A stretch of DNA of 22,823 nt from positions 1 through 22,823 of IMG/VR virus record IMGVR_UViG_3300044638_001752, one strand, 5' to 3'. The notes beneath the pieces are model-generated. The model searched no databases. It was not told where the DNA came from and saw nothing but the letters and a program-made list of their open reading frames with translations. Shown here piece by piece: positions 12,422-22,823 of this stretch (its first letter is position 1; each line of letters opens with the position of its first letter). The stretch is from a virus. The position numbers were made by a program, and so were the translations under genes.

Positions 12422-12649
12422 TCACCAATCGTTTATTGTGTTCCCCCTGTGTTTGGATTTAATCTTTTGTAGAACTTCGCGGAAACCAGCGTCTGGCTTC
12501 TTAGCGTCGTTATAGCTGAATGTTGTTGGCGTTTCATGCCATTGTATGACGTGCGGATTCTCCGAGAGGAATGTTTCCATCTCAGAGATCTTCATAAACT
12601 TTTCGAAGACTTCTTCAGTTTCAGTGTTTTTGAGATTGTACAGTGGCAT
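12422..12649 (-). CDS. Small FmdB-like conserved phage protein
   Basis: A 75-aa protein beginning MPLYNLKNTETEEVFEKFM and containing ISEMETFLSENPHV and KKPDAGFREVLQKIKSKHR near the end, a pattern I recall from small conserved proteins of T4-like cyanophages annotated as FmdB-like regulators. The Cys pairs of bacterial FmdB zinc ribbons are missing, so zinc binding is unlikely. Its start overlaps the preceding gene by 29 nt. Confidence 0.72.
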   Translation of the reverse strand: MPLYNLKNTETEEVFEKFMKISEMETFLSENPHVIQWHETPTTFSYNDAKKPDAGFREVLQKIKSKHRGNTINDW

Positions 12650-12872
12650 CTTTAATCTGCTCTATAAAGTGATCAATTAACTCATCGTTAAGTGCTGGAA
12701 GAATCTGTTTTGCTTGTTTGCGTGTTAGGGTTTTCTCGTGTATGAGCTGAGAAAGAACTACGCTTCCGCCACAAATAGAACCCTTGATAAAACCAGCGGT
12801 CTTACCTTGTCGGTGCATGTACCAACCATAAATTGCTAGGATAATCAAAGCAAATACAATTGTCATTTCCAT
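12621..12872 (-). CDS. Small single-pass membrane protein, unknown
   Basis: An 83-aa protein with one N-terminal membrane segment (TIVFALIILAIYGWYM, about residues 4-19) and a charged helical domain of about 60 residues. Alternative start ATG 12866 makes an ATGA overlap with the 57-aa ORF before it; ATG 12872 has GAGG upstream at good spacing. No family recognised. Confidence 0.6.
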   Translation of the reverse strand: MEMTIVFALIILAIYGWYMHRQGKTAGFIKGSICGGSVVLSQLIHEKTLTRKQAKQILPALNDELIDHFIEQIKDATVQSQKH

Positions 12873-13036
12873 CGATAATCCTCTTCGTCATCAAACTCAT
12901 CTTCGGTATATTCCAGCAGATGGTCGAGATCGTTAGACCTAAGCGCATTTTTGAGATTTCGTTCTTTGCGTTCAGGACGTTTTGGTTTTTTGATGTTGTC
13001 TTCCCTTTCGTGAAAAGATGCGCGCTTTATAGTCAT
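12863..13036 (-). CDS. 57-aa charged microprotein
   Basis: ATG 13036 overlaps the stop of the DUF6433-like gene as ATGA, and its TGA at 12865-12863 overlaps the next gene. The product begins MTIKRASFHEREDNIKKPKR and is basic in its first half and acidic (EYTEDEFDDEEDY) at the end. The seamless couplings on both sides argue that it is translated. No family recognised. Confidence 0.65.
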   Translation of the reverse strand: MTIKRASFHEREDNIKKPKRPERKERNLKNALRSNDLDHLLEYTEDEFDDEEDYRWK

Positions 13037-13506
13037 ACAGTTTGTTTCTTAGCTTCTTTTTCAGCTTTAGCGTTATCTTCTGCAACTTGCTTGGGAAACA
13101 ATTGCGGATATGCCTTCCTAGCAACATGAGCCGACATCGGTTTCCACGGTGTACGATGCTCCTTCATAGCAAGAATTAATTTGGCATCCTCGGGATGTAA
13201 TCCTTCGAGGTACTGAATGAACAATTGTTCGCGACGAACCTTGGCGATGTTGTTTCCAGGAAAGAAAAGATACATCTTCTTCCACTCTGAATACAGACGC
13301 TCTTCTAGGTCGGTAGCTTGTTCTTGAGTTGCTTGTTTGTAGGGAGGTTCGCCAGAAGGAAGATCTAAGTTGATATCTTCGTCGAACATAACTTTAAGGA
13401 CACCTTGTAGGACTACACTATCATGTTTGTGTAGGTGTTCTACTCGGGATTGTACATCGGGAAGCGCAGCAGCTTCCTCGAGAATTTGGGAGATGCGTTT
13501 CATCAT
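13033..13506 (-). CDS. DUF6433-like conserved phage protein
   Basis: A 157-aa protein. The pattern ISQILEEAAALPDVQSRVEHL near the start, VLKVMFDEDINLDLPSGEPPY in the middle (residues 37-57), and RREQLFIQYLEGLHPEDAKLI near 92-112 match a protein family I recall as conserved in T4-like cyanophages downstream of RNase H (DUF6433). Its function is unknown. A Lys/Glu/Ala-rich tail follows. Its start codon abuts the RNase H stop. Confidence 0.75.
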   Translation of the reverse strand: MMKRISQILEEAAALPDVQSRVEHLHKHDSVVLQGVLKVMFDEDINLDLPSGEPPYKQATQEQATDLEERLYSEWKKMYLFFPGNNIAKVRREQLFIQYLEGLHPEDAKLILAMKEHRTPWKPMSAHVARKAYPQLFPKQVAEDNAKAEKEAKKQTV

Positions 13507-14360
13507 TAGAATTCCGAAATGTTTTCCATTAAAAACTTTAGTTTGTGTTTGATAAAGTAGTTGAACAGTTGGTTCCTATCTTTACCTGCTTCCGAGTCAT
13601 ACTCTTGGATAATCCTATCCTTAATCTCACTCGGTATATTATTTAGTGAAATCAAAAGCTCGTTTCGTTTCCAGTTGCGTTGCTCTTCGTCTTTCAACTG
13701 CTCGAACGGAGTAGTCATAAAGTAGTCAAGTCGCTTCTGGGTGATGATACCCTGTCGCGTACCAGTAACAAGGCAGTCATCCTTAGACAGGATGTTCGGA
13801 ATTCCGTCGCTGGTATCGCCACGGATAATATGCTCGCGCAGGAACTCGTCGGCATCCGTACAGCTCAACATGCGTTTGCGAGTAGGATCGTATTGCTCGA
13901 CGTTATTATAGCATTGCAGTTGTTTGAAGTCTTTGTCACCAGAGACAATCATAATCTTTTCAGCATTACCAAACTCAACACCGAACTTGTGTACGAGGAC
14001 ACCGATAACATCATCGGCTTCAGCGTTATCTACGTGAATGACACGATACGGAAAGTATGCTTTCAACTCCTCACGGACTTTAGCGAATGTGTCAAACACA
14101 GTCGTCCAGTCCATATCAGAAGCATCACGGCTCTTGCGACGGTTGGCTTTGTAGTATGGAAACGCGCCACGACGCCAGCTGCTGGAGTCACAGGCGATAA
14201 CCATCTCACCATAGTCGGCTGCAAACTTCTTACGGATATTACGCAATCCGTTCAGAATCATGTGGCGAAGCAGATCTTCATCTAGCTTGGCATTTTGATG
14301 AGAGCCAAGCTGAGTCATCAGATTAGCAATCATCACTTGTTGTAAATCAATAATAAACAT
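13506..14360 (-). CDS. rnh: Phage RNase H / 5'-3' flap exonuclease
   Basis: A 284-aa FEN-family nuclease (T4 RNase H: 305 aa), which removes Okazaki primers. Acidic metal ligands appear in order: FIIDLQQ (Asp5), VIACDSSS (Asp58), NAEADDVIG (Asp116/117), VSGDKDFKQL (Asp142, Asp144) and RGDTSDGIPN (Asp182, Asp185). The WRRGAFPYYKANRRK segment at 62-76 is the usual basic bridge. Partners in the window are gp32 and gp59. The start follows the upstream stop by one base. Confidence 0.92.
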   Translation of the reverse strand: MFIIDLQQVMIANLMTQLGSHQNAKLDEDLLRHMILNGLRNIRKKFAADYGEMVIACDSSSWRRGAFPYYKANRRKSRDASDMDWTTVFDTFAKVREELKAYFPYRVIHVDNAEADDVIGVLVHKFGVEFGNAEKIMIVSGDKDFKQLQCYNNVEQYDPTRKRMLSCTDADEFLREHIIRGDTSDGIPNILSKDDCLVTGTRQGIITQKRLDYFMTTPFEQLKDEEQRNWKRNELLISLNNIPSEIKDRIIQEYDSEAGKDRNQLFNYFIKHKLKFLMENISEF

Positions 14361-16699: not shown

Positions 16700-18727
16700 T
16701 TATTTGGAAGTCGCTCGGTAAATACCGTCCCAGCCATCTTTTCGCTTCATTCCGCTAATTCGCTCAATCATGATATCATAGTATTCAGCCATCTTTCCAT
16801 CAAAATGGAACTTTAATTGTTCGGCTGTCGCGATCGCAAGTTTGAACTCTTGGTTGTAATAATACTCCAAGAACAATTTGTGTTTATTGATTCCAGCTTT
16901 GTCATCAGGAACAACGGTGAAAATATGTACACCCTCTGTCTTTCCTTTTACCGCAATGTAGTCCAGCTCAATAATCGGGAACTCGTCTTCAACATATTCA
17001 GCAGTTTTTGGACCAATGATTAACTTAACACCATAGGACTTACTTTGTCCTTCTAATCTTGCAGCCAAGTTGACACCGTCGCCCAAGCAAGTATAATCGA
17101 AACGCTGAACAGACCCCATATTACCCACAACAACAACATCAGTGTTAATGCCAAGTCCCATACCAAATGCAGGAATCCCTTCTTTGGATATTTCTTCATT
17201 AAATTTCTCCAGGTCACCTAGCATAGCTAAACCTGTACGCAAAGCATTCTTCGCGTGTTGGGCATCATCAAGAGGAGCATTCCAAAAAGCCATCTGAGCG
17301 TCGCCAATGTATTTGTCTAGCGTACCCTCGTTCTCAATAATCTTCTGTGTCATCGCAGTCATGTAACGATTCATAATTTTAGTCAGACCCTGTACGTCTT
17401 TTCCGTAGTGTTCTGAAATAGTTGTAAAGCCACGAACGTCAGTAAACATAATTGACAGTTCGCGTGATTCGCCACCTAGTTGTAGCAGATCTGGGTTTTC
17501 TTGTAGCTTCTCAACCATCGCTGGTGACAAGTATGTACCGAACTGCTTCTTAATCTGTTGCTTGAGTAGGAAGTTCTCGAGGAACTTAGCAAATGAAGCA
17601 TGAGCGAATATAACAAGCATGCCTAGAACTGGTAGCGAAGCATCAAGTAGCAGATACTCAGTTTTCCAGTAGTGATATGATGCATAACCAAACCCACCAG
17701 CAATTAGAATAACCAACGGAAGAACTAGTTTCATTGGTGCTTTATAAACAGCCAGAATAATTAACAGACCGACGAATAGAATAATAACCAGCTCAAGGAA
17801 GTCAGCGTAGTCAGGGCGAACGATTGTGTTGCCATTCAGAACTGTTTGTAATAGATTAGCCTGAACTTCATGCGGATACATTGAGCCGACAGAAGTAGGA
17901 ACTGGGTTGGCTACACCCTCAGCGGTGACACCCCAGATAAGAAACTTGCCAGCTGTATTTTCAGGTGTGATGTCAGCAGCAGAGATAGAGTCAAACTTAT
18001 TCCAATAAGAAATATAGACAGAGCCATCAGCAGTTGTTTTAATTGGCTCAAACTTAGGAATGCGAACAGCTTCAACACCAGCTTCACCAACTTTCATTTG
18101 ATACGAGATATCACCAGCAGCGACGCGAATAGTTTCAAGCGCAACTGATGGATAGATTTGCTCATTAGCGCCAACGACCATTGGTAGTTTGCGGATTGTA
18201 CCATCAACGTCACCGATAGTAGAGGATACACCTACACCGCTTGACGCTTCAGCTAGAATTGTTACTGGCGGTAGAATACCAGACCAGCTGTTTACATAAT
18301 CAAATGGATTGCCGCCGAGAGTTGCGGTTCCTACGTGTGGACCAAGACCTTCAATAGATTGGTCAGTTGGTGCTGACGAAATGATGGTGGCTCTTCGCGC
18401 GAGCGCGTCCGCGAATACTTGGTCTTTACCGAAGCGATCTTCTTCTGAATAGATAACAGTAAATACGCTGATGCTGTCTTCTGCAGTTCTATCTAAAAGA
18501 TTAGCAAACTTATCGCGCGACCAAGACCATTGACCGTATTCTTTAATTGCTTTCTCGTCGATATTAACCAGTAGAACATCGCTAGACTTAATCTGCTCGT
18601 GGCTACGTTGTAGCGAATCAAAGTAAGTTAGTCGTGTGGCTTCAACCAAGAATGGGTCATAGAAGCGCAGGGCGACCAAGAGTCCGAGTGTAATTAATGC
18701 TAGATACCACTTTGTTAGGAATTTCAT
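16700..18727 (-). CDS. CHASE2-domain class III adenylate cyclase
   Basis: A 675-aa membrane protein. TM1 at about 7-23 is followed by a periplasmic CHASE2 sensor (about 25-300, with VLLVNIDEKAIKEYGQW), three TMs (about 309-328, 332-350, 358-376) and a cytoplasmic class III cyclase domain (about 422-608). Catalytic residues are present: metal Asp430 (MFTDVRGFT) and Asp476 (DKYIGDAQMAFWNAP), purine-binding Lys472, Asn553 and Arg557 (VNLAARLEG). The second purine-specificity position is Thr546 in FDYTCLGD, as in class IIIb adenylate cyclases, so cAMP is the likely product. The start overlaps the FecR stop as ATGA. CHASE2 cyclases paired with FecR proteins are a bacterial arrangement; finding it in a myovirus suggests host acquisition. 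Confidence 0.92.
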   Translation of the reverse strand: MKFLTKWYLALITLGLLVALRFYDPFLVEATRLTYFDSLQRSHEQIKSSDVLLVNIDEKAIKEYGQWSWSRDKFANLLDRTAEDSISVFTVIYSEEDRFGKDQVFADALARRATIISSAPTDQSIEGLGPHVGTATLGGNPFDYVNSWSGILPPVTILAEASSGVGVSSTIGDVDGTIRKLPMVVGANEQIYPSVALETIRVAAGDISYQMKVGEAGVEAVRIPKFEPIKTTADGSVYISYWNKFDSISAADITPENTAGKFLIWGVTAEGVANPVPTSVGSMYPHEVQANLLQTVLNGNTIVRPDYADFLELVIILFVGLLIILAVYKAPMKLVLPLVILIAGGFGYASYHYWKTEYLLLDASLPVLGMLVIFAHASFAKFLENFLLKQQIKKQFGTYLSPAMVEKLQENPDLLQLGGESRELSIMFTDVRGFTTISEHYGKDVQGLTKIMNRYMTAMTQKIIENEGTLDKYIGDAQMAFWNAPLDDAQHAKNALRTGLAMLGDLEKFNEEISKEGIPAFGMGLGINTDVVVVGNMGSVQRFDYTCLGDGVNLAARLEGQSKSYGVKLIIGPKTAEYVEDEFPIIELDYIAVKGKTEGVHIFTVVPDDKAGINKHKLFLEYYYNQEFKLAIATAEQLKFHFDGKMAEYYDIMIERISGMKRKDGWDGIYRATSK

Positions 18728-19815
18728 TTCTTCTGCCTTATAATAATTGTATTGCTGTCACCACCATTGATGACCACATTGAACTCTTTACCATCAAGAT
18801 TAAAGATAATGTTGTAAGCTGTTTTCTCATCAAGCACTAATTTAATCTTTCCGTTGTTATCCTTAGATATAGTTATAATATCTTTATTTAATACTGTTAG
18901 CAAACCTGTCTGCGCGTCAAGTCCGATATCTGTACCTGTAATTTCAGCAGCAGTGCGAACCTCACCCAACTTCGCTTCTTGTAACTTATCTACTTCAATC
19001 ATAACTGGGATAATGTCAGCCAGATAATCTACTTCAAGATAGTTAATGTCAATATCATTAAACTCTAGCGCGTCTCTTTCTTGTTCGATTGCTAGGTAGT
19101 CTACGTCAAGTTCGTTGTAAGCAAGCGCATCTTCCTCTAGTATCATCTCATCTTCTTCCTGCTCTACTACTTTAGGAGGATTAACAATAAGCATATTGTT
19201 GATCTGGTCTAAGGAAAGGTCGAGGATGGCTGGTTTAGTTGGAGCTGAGTCGCTCGAGAATGCAACGGTTGACTGCATAGATTTGTTTAGTACCACCGAG
19301 CCACCGTTGGTAGCAACTAAGATTTCACCAGATGGTGCACCGTTCTCATCGGGGAGAAGGATTACTAAACTACGACCGAGTTCGTCGACGGTGATTGTGA
19401 AGTCTGTACCGCGAACTGCGATCTGTGATGTGGGTGTTTTAATTGATACATTTTTCTTATCAATTTTATTCATTTTCCCAGTAGCAAATCTGGCTGTCCC
19501 ACTTGCGAAGTTGACAGCCAATTTGCCTTTACTTGGATTAGGATCGTAAACGAATTCATCTATTACGACTTTACTCTGTTCGGTGACTCGAAGTATCGAG
19601 CCATCTAGGAAATCGATCTTCATACGACCATTTCCTGTTCTTACGTCATCACGCATCTCGATTCCCAGCTGTAATTTAGCTGGGAGCGGAGTCTTTCTTA
19701 CAACTGAACCTGTTCCCTTCAGCTCGGTGATTGAACCAATCTTAGACTCAGCAGCCAGAGGTGCCAGTGTTAGACTGATAAACACAAATGGTAGAAGGAG
19801 TTTGTGCAGTTCCAC
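18724..19815 (-). CDS. Exported FecR-domain protein
   Basis: A 363-aa protein from GTG 19815, the only start that includes the whole signal peptide (LLLPFVFISLTLAPLAA, cut near 22). The FecR domain (about 25-185) shows GSITELKGTGSVVRKT, MRDDVRTGNGRMKIDFLDGS, and TPTSQIAVRGTDFTI at 128-142, the hallmark of periplasmic FecR-type domains. Residues 215-270 are very acidic and contain an imperfect repeat (DALAYNELDVDYLAIE / DALEFNDIDINYLEVD). The C-terminal 80 residues form a further beta-rich domain. Being periplasmic and translationally coupled to the CHASE2 cyclase, it probably senses or scaffolds the input to that cyclase. Its first 68 nt overlap the curlin-like gene. Confidence 0.85.
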   Translation of the reverse strand: MELHKLLLPFVFISLTLAPLAAESKIGSITELKGTGSVVRKTPLPAKLQLGIEMRDDVRTGNGRMKIDFLDGSILRVTEQSKVVIDEFVYDPNPSKGKLAVNFASGTARFATGKMNKIDKKNVSIKTPTSQIAVRGTDFTITVDELGRSLVILLPDENGAPSGEILVATNGGSVVLNKSMQSTVAFSSDSAPTKPAILDLSLDQINNMLIVNPPKVVEQEEDEMILEEDALAYNELDVDYLAIEQERDALEFNDIDINYLEVDYLADIIPVMIEVDKLQEAKLGEVRTAAEITGTDIGLDAQTGLLTVLNKDIITISKDNNGKIKLVLDEKTAYNIIFNLDGKEFNVVINGGDSNTIIIRQKK

Positions 19816-20464
19816 TAGTTGTACTCTCTATGGTGATTGAGTTGGTTTCAGTTGCGCCAGCCTGTGTAATGTTGAAGTTTGTATAATCGCCAGTGTGGTC
19901 GATGTTTACGCTATGTCCAGCAAAACCAGTTGCGCTTGTTGTTACGTTATTGTAATTACCAACCATTGTGATGGTGCTTTCAGCATTCTCTGAGTTTACA
20001 GTAGCATTGAAGTTATTGTAATCACCAGTAATATCCCATGTGAAAGTAGAACCGTCAGCCACATCAGCTGTACCAACATTCATTAGCAGAGTATTATTTC
20101 CGCCAGTGATATTAATGTCATACTCTGTGTCGTCTGCACTAAACGAACCGTTCGGGTTGTTGTTTAATGTAATTTCGTTATTATCGCCATATCCTAAAAT
20201 GCTTGCTAGGATACCGTTGCCATATAACCAACCATATAGCGAGTTGTTATTACCAGTTTGTGTTATGGTAATATCTTGTTGGTTGCCGTTAAAGTAAAAC
20301 GGTGTTTGACCGTCATCAGAACCTATGGTGTTATTTTCACCAGTTTGTTCCATGACAATTGTAGCCTGTTGACCAACCTGATTAATATAAATCTGGTTGT
20401 CACTAGCTTGACCCAATACTGTACCTGTCATCAAAAGCATCACGAAGAAGATGGCGTTCTTCAT
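19748..20464 (-). CDS. Curlin-like (CsgA/B-type) secreted amyloid repeat protein
   Basis: A 238-aa protein with a signal peptide (about 1-20, ending VLGQA). The mature part is Asn/Gln/Thr/Gly-rich with almost no Lys/Arg. A repeated G-x-x-N pattern recurs with Gly at about residues 31, 42, 71, 93, 121, 147, 169, 192 and 203, mostly 22-29 apart, for example EQTGENNTI, TQTGNNNSL, NITGGNNTL, DITGDYNNF and MVGNYNNVT. This matches curlin strand-loop-strand repeats, though it is degenerate compared with E. coli CsgA. The end has two cysteines (TICVYQSNTGTSGC). It lies directly after CsgG in the operon, so it is the probable substrate of the CsgG/CsgF pore. No separate CsgB nucleator is seen. Confidence 0.78.
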   Translation of the reverse strand: MKNAIFFVMLLMTGTVLGQASDNQIYINQVGQQATIVMEQTGENNTIGSDDGQTPFYFNGNQQDITITQTGNNNSLYGWLYGNGILASILGYGDNNEITLNNNPNGSFSADDTEYDINITGGNNTLLMNVGTADVADGSTFTWDITGDYNNFNATVNSENAESTITMVGNYNNVTTSATGFAGHSVNIDHTGDYTNFNITQAGATETNSITIESTTSGTAQTPSTICVYQSNTGTSGC

Positions 20465-20476
20465 TTACTTTTCCTT

Positions 20477-21316
20477 TTATTTGAATTGCCAGTATCCTTT
20501 CGCCTTACCATTTTTGATAAGTTGTAACACTGCTTCTTCTATTGCTTTTTGCGTTGCGATGTTTACAGACTCGTTTTGAGCTGTTCCGTTTTCAACTTCA
20601 ACGAGTGCCGTTCCTGCTTCTACGAAACGAAACACATCCTGCGAGTATCCTACCGACAGAATTGTCTTAGTTGAAATGACATCTATAAGAACTTCGCCTG
20701 TCGCAACCGAAACCAAACGAAGTGAAACTGTAACTGTATCTTTGACATAGCGTTTGGACGCACCGATACCCAAGTATCTTGCACCAGCACCGCCTGTCAT
20801 CGTGTTAGTATCATAACCAACAACTCCACCCTCTATGATTAAACCAGCAAAGAGCAGTGGTGGCAGTTTATTTATACCTTCGCCCTCGTAAGACTCACGA
20901 GTAGACTTAATAAGCTGGCGTTCTTTAGAAAGATTTTCTAATCCTTTGCGCTCTACTACTTGGAACACTTCGCCATAGCCAGCACCGCGAAGAGCGCGAA
21001 TTAGAAACACCTCTGGGGCTTGCGTTACAGCAGTCGAAAACGAAGATAGGTTTTCGCTAGGTTTGCGCTGACCTGTTAAATCAGCAAACGAATAGATCGC
21101 GATCGTCGGCTTCTGGACCACAGGTGGCAGATCTCTGAGTTCTCTATTGAAGACGAACTCTTGAATCTCAGCTTGGTCGATCTTCTGTATATGTAATCCG
21201 TTAAACTTTTCTGATGTCTCTACCACTTTTCCGCCAGCAGCGTGTAGTGTATAGCAACCAGTTAAATTAACCGAAGCAACAGAAACCGCTAATAGGAATA
21301 GTGACGCTCGTAACAT
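20477..21316 (-). CDS. csgG: Curli secretion lipoprotein channel CsgG
   Basis: A 279-aa lipoprotein (E. coli CsgG: 277 aa). The signal peptide ends in the lipobox LTGC with acylated Cys21. Diagnostic segments are ELRDLPPVVQKPTIAIYSFAD (62-82), FQVVERKGLENLSKERQLI, LLFAGLIIEGGVVGYDTN, TGGAGARYLGIGASKRYVKD, VSLRLVSVATGEVL and ISTKTILSVG, each closely matching the E. coli protein. CsgG forms a nonameric outer-membrane pore that exports curlin. Its first 50 nt overlap the csgF end. The set csgF-csgG-curlin is a minimal type VIII secretion system; csgE, csgC and csgD are not in the window. Confidence 0.95.
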   Translation of the reverse strand: MLRASLFLLAVSVASVNLTGCYTLHAAGGKVVETSEKFNGLHIQKIDQAEIQEFVFNRELRDLPPVVQKPTIAIYSFADLTGQRKPSENLSSFSTAVTQAPEVFLIRALRGAGYGEVFQVVERKGLENLSKERQLIKSTRESYEGEGINKLPPLLFAGLIIEGGVVGYDTNTMTGGAGARYLGIGASKRYVKDTVTVSLRLVSVATGEVLIDVISTKTILSVGYSQDVFRFVEAGTALVEVENGTAQNESVNIATQKAIEEAVLQLIKNGKAKGYWQFK

Positions 21317-21728
21317 CTGTGGGATCCGTTAAATTAGTTATGATAAGTTTTAATACTTCTGCTCCGTTCTCATCAACCGTCGACTGATAGTTAATGTTGT
21401 ATCCTTGTAGGTTAAGCGAACCAGAACCAGTTGCGCCTTCTGCGAATAGATTGGTCACTAGCTGTCTTGATAATTCAGCGTATATTCTTGACTCTACGTT
21501 TTTCAAGAATCGGTTCACAGTTGAGTTGTTTTCCGCTGCGATGGCAGCCTTCAACTCGTCTTCTAATTTCTTGGCGATGGCTTCTTTACGAGAAGTTTCT
21601 TGATTCTCAATAGTTAGATAATGTGATGATGTACCCTGTCCGTTGAAGGATGGGCTTTTGAATTGAAAGGTTATATCGCCAGCTAACGCGCTGAAAGGTA
21701 ATAGACTAAGCAGCAGGAGTTTCTTCAT
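21267..21728 (-). CDS. csgF: Curli assembly factor CsgF
   Basis: A 153-aa protein (E. coli CsgF: 138 aa) with signal peptide MKKLLLLSLLPFSALA. The mature N-terminus GDITFQFKSPSFNGQGTSS corresponds to the CsgF segment that inserts in the CsgG pore and forms a second constriction. The C-terminal part (NYQSTVDENG, TSVTIPISGF) matches the CsgF beta domain; it ends with CCFG, unusual cysteines. In E. coli, CsgF couples secretion to fibre nucleation at the surface. GAGGAG lies before ATG 21728. The order csgF, csgG differs from E. coli csgDEFG only by lacking the upstream genes. Confidence 0.88.
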   Translation of the reverse strand: MKKLLLLSLLPFSALAGDITFQFKSPSFNGQGTSSHYLTIENQETSRKEAIAKKLEDELKAAIAAENNSTVNRFLKNVESRIYAELSRQLVTNLFAEGATGSGSLNLQGYNINYQSTVDENGAEVLKLIITNLTDPTDVTSVTIPISGFCCFG

Positions 21729-21775: not shown

Positions 21776-22066
21776 TCAAGTGTCAGTATTTTTATCAGAC
21801 TTAGGCTTATGCTTATTCGCATGTTTCTCTTCCTCTTTCATTTGTAGGACAACGCTGACTTTTTGTTGCAATCTAATTAAGTCATTATCTAACATACGAA
21901 TACGGTCAATCAATGCAATTAAAATACCGCTGGTTTGTCCAATCAACGGTGTTAATTCTTTTGTAACAAAGCTGTAAATAAAGAATACGAAATATCCCAT
22001 CCCGACCGCAGCGACGATAGGAAAGCCATATTGTTTAATCAACTCAATGACTACATCAGGATTCAT
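21776..22066 (-). CDS. Holin-like small membrane protein (paralogue B)
   Basis: A 96-aa protein with one TM segment (about 14-33, GFPIVAAVGMGYFVFFIYSF), a short amphipathic linker, a heptad-like coiled-coil helix (about 45-72) and a very basic/charged tail. It aligns along its length with the 95-aa protein at 22230-22517. One-TM plus coiled-coil proteins beside an endolysin are typical of holins or their regulators. It is coupled to the 55-aa ORF by ATGA, and 47 bp upstream of csgF. Confidence 0.66.
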   Translation of the reverse strand: MNPDVVIELIKQYGFPIVAAVGMGYFVFFIYSFVTKELTPLIGQTSGILIALIDRIRMLDNDLIRLQQKVSVVLQMKEEEKHANKHKPKSDKNTDT

Positions 22067-22230
22067 TTTGTTTCTCTAAGCGTAGCAATATATTTTTTAT
22101 CTGATACCATATTGCTAAGTGTATCAGCTGTTCTTCTTAGGAACATACTTTCAGTGGTTATGCCATCTTCATTTTCCATAATTCTTGCATAGTCATGCAT
22201 TATAGTAATTAAGTCTTCTAGTGTTGACAT
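22063..22230 (-). CDS. 55-aa microprotein between the holin-like genes
   Basis: Start ATG 22230 overlaps the previous stop as TAATG; its TGA overlaps the next ATG as ATGA. It begins MSTLEDLITIMHDYARIM and is a soluble, mostly helical peptide. No family recognised. Its place between two holin-like paralogues suggests a role in timing lysis, which is inference. Confidence 0.6.
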   Translation of the reverse strand: MSTLEDLITIMHDYARIMENEDGITTESMFLRRTADTLSNMVSDKKYIATLRETK

Positions 22231-22517
22231 TAGTCTCTCCTTGCGTCGTTTTTGCCGTCTGCTCTTGCGAGTCTATCGAGATCTGGTCTTAGACCTAGCG
22301 CAGAACTAACAACCGCATCAACTCGGATGATATCATGATTCATGGTTTTCACACGATTATCTAATGCGATGATTATACCCTGCAACCCTTGGATCTGTTT
22401 TACCACACCAGTCAATATGAACTTAATTACGAAATAGACAAACACGCCAGCAGCCATAGCTGCAGCGATAGGAAATCCAACTTCGGCAATTATCTTAAAT
22501 ATAGCGTCGTAGCTCAT
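22230..22517 (-). CDS. Holin-like small membrane protein (paralogue A)
   Basis: A 95-aa protein with one TM (about 14-34, VGFPIAAAMAAGVFVYFVIKF), a helix with LQGIIIALDNRVKTMNHDIIR, and a charged tail with DGKNDARRD. It resembles the protein at 21776-22066 in TM position and in the GIxIALxxRxxxxxxDxIR pattern, so the two arose by duplication and could act as holin and antiholin. It is the first gene behind the minus-strand late promoter at 22547-22540, opposite the endolysin. Confidence 0.68.
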   Translation of the reverse strand: MSYDAIFKIIAEVGFPIAAAMAAGVFVYFVIKFILTGVVKQIQGLQGIIIALDNRVKTMNHDIIRVDAVVSSALGLRPDLDRLARADGKNDARRD

Positions 22518-22539: not shown

Positions 22540-22551
22540 TATTTATAAATA
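22540..22551. promoter_or_regulatory. Palindromic divergent T4-type late promoter
   Basis: TATTTATAAATA contains an exact TATAAATA on the plus strand (22544-22551) and on the minus strand (22547-22540), overlapping by four bases. With flanking C and G the palindrome is 14 bp. It serves the endolysin (ATG 22603) and the holin/curli unit (ATG 22517). Confidence 0.78.
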
Positions 22552-22602: not shown

Positions 22603-22823
22603 ATGAGTTTAGTTGCATTACAAAAGAAAATCGGTGTTACCGCTGACGGTGCATTTGGTCCAGGAACATTAAAAGCTGCGATGGCATTCTATAAAATGTC
22701 ACCAGTTCGCGCTGCGCATTTCTTCGCGCAGACTGCCCATGAGTCAGGTAATTTCAAAGCATTCTCTGAAAACCTAAACTACTCGGCAGATGGCTTAACC
22801 AAAATCTTCGGTAAATACTTCGA
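22603..22823 (+). CDS. GH19-type endolysin (partial, N-terminus)
   Basis: AAAGGAG at 22591-22597 precedes ATG 22603; 73 codons are visible before the window ends. Residues 1-32 (LQKKIGVTADGAFGPGTLK) look like a half peptidoglycan-binding repeat. Then RAAHFFAQTAHESGNFKAF, with Glu47, and ENLNYSADGLTKIFGKYF match the start of the glycoside hydrolase 19 lysozyme/chitinase-like domain used as endolysin by many phages; Glu47 would be the general acid. No signal peptide, so it needs a holin, for which the divergent genes are candidates. Confidence 0.88.
   Translation, partial: MSLVALQKKIGVTADGAFGPGTLKAAMAFYKMSPVRAAHFFAQTAHESGNFKAFSENLNYSADGLTKIFGKYF

Follow-up and report, generated by a model that had tools for sequence, protein, structure and literature searches.

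A phage curli secretion module linked to a FecR-domain protein, a CHASE2 adenylate cyclase and two small membrane proteins

Gene layout, authenticity and known relatives

The 22,823-base virus record IMGVR_UViG_3300044638_001752 (IMG/VR), called the window when considered over its whole length, comes from an aquatic phage and contains a curli-type secretion module that ends in a CHASE2-type cyclase gene. On the minus strand from 22547 to 16700, one gene series runs from the promoter element TATAAATA through holB, holA, csgF, csgG, a curlin-repeat gene and a FecR-domain gene to a CHASE2 class III cyclase. The names holA and holB were coined in this analysis and imply no holin function. Along this strand the features are:

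22540..22547, minus strand: T4-type late promoter -10 element TATAAATA, first base 30 nt ahead of the holB ATG
22230..22517, minus strand: holB, 95-residue membrane protein with a coiled coil and the conserved C-terminus RADGKNDARRD (phrog_18771, E=5e-34)
21776..22066, minus strand: holA, 96-residue holB paralogue (phrog_18771, E=6e-34; very weak holin-family match, E=0.0065)
21267..21728, minus strand: CsgF-like protein of the type VIII secretion system (T8SS) with a signal peptide (PF10614, E=1e-14; solved CsgF matched weakly)
20477..21316, minus strand: CsgG outer-membrane curli export pore, a lipoprotein with invariant Cys21 (PF03783, E=8e-51)
19748..20464, minus strand: curlin-repeat fibre protein, CsgA/B-like, with invariant Q-x-G-x2-N repeats (all-beta model; predicted local distance difference test score, pLDDT, 87.7)
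18724..19815, minus strand: secreted FecR-domain protein (PF04773, E=4e-13; model pLDDT 80.6)
16700..18727, minus strand: CHASE2 periplasmic sensor, transmembrane (TM) bundle and class III adenylate cyclase with a C-terminal extension (PF05226, E=6e-37; PF00211, E=1.5e-16)

The Pfam matches of CsgF, CsgG, FecR, CHASE2 and Guanylate_cyc all exceed curated cut-offs. The csgF and csgG genes overlap by 50 nt, csgG and the curlin gene are separated by 12 nt, and overlaps of 68 nt (GTG start) and 4 nt join curlin to FecR and FecR to the cyclase. Around the module lie T4-like genes for tail tube, baseplate hub, gp32-like single-stranded-DNA-binding protein, DNA end protector, head closure and PhoH; no tRNA genes were found in the window. 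The original prediction, made from the letters alone, had listed csgF, csgG, a curlin-like gene, FecR and a CHASE2 cyclase as one minus-strand series in a T4-like genome. All five open reading frames (ORFs) are present at these positions, all but the curlin-like one with Pfam matches of their own. The list was nevertheless incomplete, as it overlooked the conserved membrane proteins at 21776–22066 and 22230–22517, which are part of the module.

This locus is a further member of a published phage curli–cyclase module, and it is real and well supported. Near-identical sequence (99.94–99.99% over 8.6–15.9 kb) occurs in three further IMG/VR records (sample numbers 3300049595, 3300036398 and 3300034092), an 84-kb contig is about 95% identical to the window, and the module is also found in the isolates HTVC008M and Melnitz, the latter described by Buchholz 2022 (PMC9004378). 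A scan with the cyclase retrieved at least 594 relatives, some on contigs of 258–344 kb, and a scan with holB added a relative on a 349-kb contig. The original prediction had allowed for an assembly chimera, with the cluster absent from other phages; the near-identical records, the isolates and hundreds of IMG/VR contigs rule out a chimera or host fragment. The idea that we are looking at non-functional passenger genes, or at a bacterial fragment in a chimeric contig, has nothing in its favour and can be dismissed for practical purposes, given this distribution, ratios of nonsynonymous to synonymous substitution rates (dN/dS) far below 1 and the lack of this gene set in bacterial curli loci.

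A curli cluster in pelagimyophages was reported by Zaragoza-Solas 2020 (PMC7029224), as the original prediction had noted. Wittmers et al. 2022 (PMC9599517) described CsgF, CsgG, CsgA/B, FecR, a second curlin and adenylate cyclase in pelagi-myo- and podophages, and the same work shows expression of phage curli genes in ocean metatranscriptomes. The coupling of curli to a cyclase is already published (PMC9599517); the linkage of FecR and CHASE2-cyclase to the export parts in a late operon is supported here. The CHASE2 domain is not named in the main texts of PMC7029224, PMC9599517 or PMC9004378. The present analysis adds the near-invariant linkage, the contrast with bacterial loci, the conservation of cyclase residues, the evidence for purifying selection, the small membrane pair and the scarcity of receptors in SAR11.

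The published pelagiphage module (PMC9599517; HTVC008M I899_gp014–gp019; Melnitz gp99–gp104) has the gene order CsgF–CsgG–curlin–FecR–(curlin)–cyclase, as in the window, and small genes precede csgF in HTVC008M and Melnitz as well. Unlike the window, it contains a second curlin gene between FecR and cyclase. In HTVC008M this second curlin (gp018; L002:10638-11963) includes a PA14-like domain (PF07691, E=3e-6), possibly a carbohydrate-binding tip. Melnitz has been stated to have no curlin genes (PMC9004378), but gp101 (L003:10734-11453) and gp103 (12512-13528) of Melnitz MZ577097 both exceed the Pfam curlin-repeat cut-off (PF07012).

Linkage in phages and comparison with bacteria

We ran three reciprocal scans anchored on the cyclase, csgG or holB, and read the loci with hidden Markov models (HMMs) built here. 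Each scan covers the best 80 loci, which are mutually related and do not represent independent trials. The linkage proved near-invariant. Of the loci anchored on the cyclase with 9 kb or more of upstream sequence, 31/31 contain csgF, csgG, curlin and FecR and 30/31 the small pair. Where csgG served as anchor and enough flank was available, csgF, curlin, FecR and at least one small protein were present in all 26 loci and the cyclase in 24. Anchoring on holB recovered the cyclase in 33/35 and csgG in 30/35 loci; in two more, csgG lies in another part of the record. CsgG and cyclase are about 45–55% identical across much of this locus set, and the cyclase lies within a few kilobases of csgG also in loci where the two genes point in opposite directions (L051, L073, L076). 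Six records of an annotated phage collection bear the module, and the small proteins are present in these six and in no others.

Of the 77 loci from a genome scan with the phage CsgG, 67 were ordinary loci of bacteria, chiefly Sphingomonadales and Hyphomonadales, and ten had phage-type parts. Alphaproteobacterial curli operons (Erythrobacter, Hyphomonas, Sphingopyxis and others) resemble the phage module in that csgF–csgG is followed by curlins, and their CsgG is 42–54% identical in most cases. In contrast to the phage module, they have no FecR, cyclase or holA/B gene: these were found in 0/67 loci when up to 10 kb was read to either side, using a cyclase HMM that includes the general catalytic domain and a phage-built FecR HMM that could miss distant FecRs. 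This count eliminates the possibility that phages took FecR plus cyclase ready-made from a bacterial curli operon. The ten remaining loci, on GTDB contigs assigned to Flavobacteriaceae, Maricaulis, Pirellulales, Pelagibacter and other bins (L084–L090, L092, L101, L160), contain curli parts of the phage type and probably represent phage sequence that was mis-binned.

Among the 20 closest bacterial CHASE2-cyclase loci, a FecR-domain protein stands next to or near the cyclase in six, several of these proteins being long and surface-type. The original prediction had described FecR plus CHASE2-cyclase as a bacterial signalling arrangement. The pairing is as in the phage, but curli genes were found beside none of these 20 cyclases, and the bacterial FecR domain is mostly part of a longer surface- or adhesin-like protein. 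FecR–CHASE2 is a bacterial pairing and curli a bacterial system; their union was seen here in phages alone.

Properties of the module proteins

Of the parts of a T8SS, a CsgG pore, a CsgF accessory protein and a curlin-repeat subunit are present, the last recognized at family level. The CsgG profile matches solved CsgG (3x2r/4uv3) with E<1e-66. Taken alone, the window curlin-like ORF stays below the PF07012 cut-off and has no Pfam match, and its model found nothing in the PDB under E=0.1. Aligned with 37 phage homologues, however, it displays invariant Q-x-G-x2-N repeats common to them, and the HMM of this phage family recovers the curlins that neighbour csgG in nearly all of the bacterial loci.

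The secreted FecR protein consists of a signal peptide, a FecR beta domain (24–200), a linker and a C-terminal beta domain that ends in a near-invariant ITIxQ-type strand. This ending raised the possibility that the C-terminus is a curlin repeat, which we rejected after profile comparison with curlins gave a probability of 7.8%. The best fold matches of the model are the PupR cell-surface signalling domain (6ovk, E=1e-4) and a Parabacteroides FecR-type anti-sigma protein; a weaker match is the cell-surface anchoring domain 5ix9, which is also the top, non-significant sequence match. No N-terminal cytoplasmic anti-sigma domain or TM segment was found, as the signal peptide alone precedes the FecR domain. 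Since a signal peptide leads into the periplasmic FecR fold and the anti-sigma part is missing, we can exclude that the protein is an iron regulator. Judged from the model, it is a periplasmic signalling or anchoring domain.

The window cyclase, which has four to five hydrophobic segments, comprises an extracytoplasmic CHASE2 domain, a TM region and a cyclase domain. It is full-length, in line with the original prediction, and retains the class III catalytic residues for metal binding, base contact and transition state (D430, D476, K472, T546, N553, R557). We compared these positions in 163 phage cyclases, over half of them fetched by csgG or holB rather than by cyclase patterns. Asp430 and Asp476 (metal) and Lys472 (base contact) are present in 163/163, and Arg557 in all except two rows that are gapped there. 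The second base-contact position is taken by Thr, Ser or Asp, and 11 rows with Asp, Melnitz included, also have Ser in place of Asn553. The combination of Asn-to-Ser with Thr-to-Asp is common to Melnitz and ten other contigs, and we therefore read it as a variant and not as catalytic loss. Comparison of the window with its 84-kb relative gives dN/dS values of 0.03 (cyclase) and 0.04–0.11 (csgF, csgG, curlin and FecR), indicating purifying selection. Because the catalytic residues are kept and purifying selection is strong, the phage cyclase likely produces cyclic AMP (cAMP).

Several loci also contain stand-alone ORFs of 100–138 residues near csgF that match only the C-terminal 95–110 residues of the phage CHASE2-cyclase, as if a free copy of this C-terminal module (L012:4791-5099, L018:4959-5279, L037:2523-2936, L051:17965-18351, L073:4035-4430 and L076:15012-15407).

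The most conserved of the aligned proteins is HolB, with a mean column identity of 74% (12 phages), compared with 61% for the cyclase and 55% for CsgG (9–10 phages). Its C-terminus is almost fixed across phages, and the gene is present in 26/26 strict cyclase-anchored loci. Loci that hold any phrog_18771-type small protein hold exactly two copies (72/72); ahead of csgF, some phages have both copies and others a single one. The element TATAAATA occurs at most 120 nt upstream of the holB homologue in 36/157 non-redundant loci, compared with 3.1% in shuffles. Since it was found upstream of holB and not of holA, csgG or FecR homologues, holB probably heads the late operon. Wittmers et al. mention a "histidine kinase, sometimes two" before csgF (PMC9599517). 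Position and copy number suggest that this most likely refers to the phrog_18771 pair; at about 95 residues, the two proteins are too short for complete kinases.

Proposed function and competing explanations

We tentatively propose, at somewhat less than an even chance, that this late phage module remodels the envelope of the infected cell by exporting a curli-like fibre, while FecR and the CHASE2-cyclase report its status as cAMP. Late transcription would start at the holB promoter, with holB and holA heading the operon. CsgG with CsgF would form an outer-membrane pore through which the curlin-repeat protein could leave as a curli-like fibre. The secreted FecR protein, in the periplasm beside pore or fibre, may tell the periplasmic CHASE2 domain how assembly stands, or that a ligand or phage has arrived from outside, and the inner-membrane cyclase would respond with cAMP. 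The most likely benefit would be to keep or catch neighbouring host cells and virions, or to block superinfection. Signalling from FecR to CHASE2 would have a precedent by analogy in Sinorhizobium, where the outer-membrane protein NsrA signals to CHASE2 cyclases (PMC7529298, PMC13001267). As proposed for the phage module, the NsrA/CyaD1–CyaD2–CyaK system connects an outer-membrane protein to inner-membrane CHASE2 cyclases. It differs in that NsrA is a large beta-barrel and that the output runs through the CRP-type regulator Clr, whereas the examined phages have no Clr-type regulator.

Several observations weigh against this proposal. Melnitz cultures showed no clumping (PMC9004378), and two loci (L335, L369) hold csgG, curlin and FecR without a cyclase. 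The CsgE gate was found in 0/22 phage records; since alphaproteobacterial curli modules also have no CsgE (PMC9599517), this absence does not disqualify the module as a T8SS. The cyclic-nucleotide-binding domain PF00027 occurs in 9/118 SAR11-family genomes, sampled as the family of a Pelagibacter-labelled metagenome-assembled genome, versus 86/114 in an alphaproteobacterial sample, and in 0/22 module-bearing phage records, many of which are fragments. With PF00027 rare in SAR11 and absent from the examined phage records, there is no obvious cAMP target in SAR11. The reprogramming through host cAMP suggested in the original prediction is doubtful in these hosts.

Six of the SAR11 PF00027 proteins were inspected and named by eye. 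One has the size of CRP/FNR and FNR-like N-terminal cysteines, four share a longer acyltransferase-like protein (one of them truncated where its contig stops), and the sixth is a fusion with an ABC transporter. The fusion of this domain to an acyltransferase-like region (L163–L166) represents a possible non-CRP target for cyclic nucleotides. Class III cyclases were found in 2/118 SAR11-family genomes, one on a phage contig of the curli module and the other of CHASE2 type. This receptor argument may not hold for the window. Its 84-kb relative encodes twelve tRNA genes and a transfer-messenger RNA (tmRNA) of the betaproteobacterial family RF01850 (L381:13667-16062), and betaproteobacterial hosts may have CRP; this tmRNA is only a hint.

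If the envelope-remodelling circuit works as proposed, the phage would equip its host with a surface fibre as well as a second-messenger sensor, and such a sensor would sit in ocean bacteria that mostly have no usual cAMP receptor. With near-obligate linkage, a conserved active site and two conserved membrane proteins that had been ignored, the vague question of why phages carry curli becomes one that can be tested gene by gene. The unsolved puzzle is sharpened in that the best-known host group appears to have no cAMP receptor.

A possible though doubtful alternative is a phage-specific fibre machine in which the coiled-coil pair, FecR and the CHASE2-cyclase form a self-contained circuit. Its cAMP would act on a non-CRP target or outside the cell, the hosts themselves mostly possessing no class III cyclase and no CRP.

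Superinfection exclusion or defence, with the sensor detecting competitor phages at the envelope and a cyclic nucleotide or fibre coat blocking them in a Pycsar-like manner, seems unlikely to us. Exclusion by curli has been suggested (PMC9599517), and the cyclase domain matches the PADLOC PycC models (E=1.5e-23). This match, however, spans the generic catalytic core only. The Lys/Thr base-contact residues are presumably adenine-type, as we take from established knowledge of class III cyclases. Pycsar needs an effector activated by a cyclic nucleotide, and a PADLOC scan of the seven module proteins gave no effector match, so that no effector gene was identified in the linked module.

A role in lysis timing was proposed for Melnitz (PMC9004378): the CsgG pore and holin-like small proteins would depolarise the envelope and trigger the endolysin, with the cyclase setting the time. 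In the window, an endolysin gene (22603–22821, plus strand) does start just beyond holB, divergent from it, and runs off the window end (full copy at L008:5513-6160); HolA alone of the pair contributes the weak holin-family match listed above. Outside the window clade, an endolysin adjoins holB in only a few loci, and we reject this link as a general feature of the module. Holins usually diverge fast, unlike HolB with its mean column identity of 74%. As lysis timing also leaves curlin and FecR unexplained, we consider it rather improbable.

Least convincing among functional roles, and quite improbable, is an open pore for uptake of nutrients such as cofactors or siderophores with FecR as an iron regulator, as suggested in PMC9599517 and PMC7029224. 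The absent CsgE gate would fit such a pore, but FecR has no cytoplasmic anti-sigma part, and curlin, needless for a bare pore, is kept in all adequately covered csgG- or cyclase-anchored loci.

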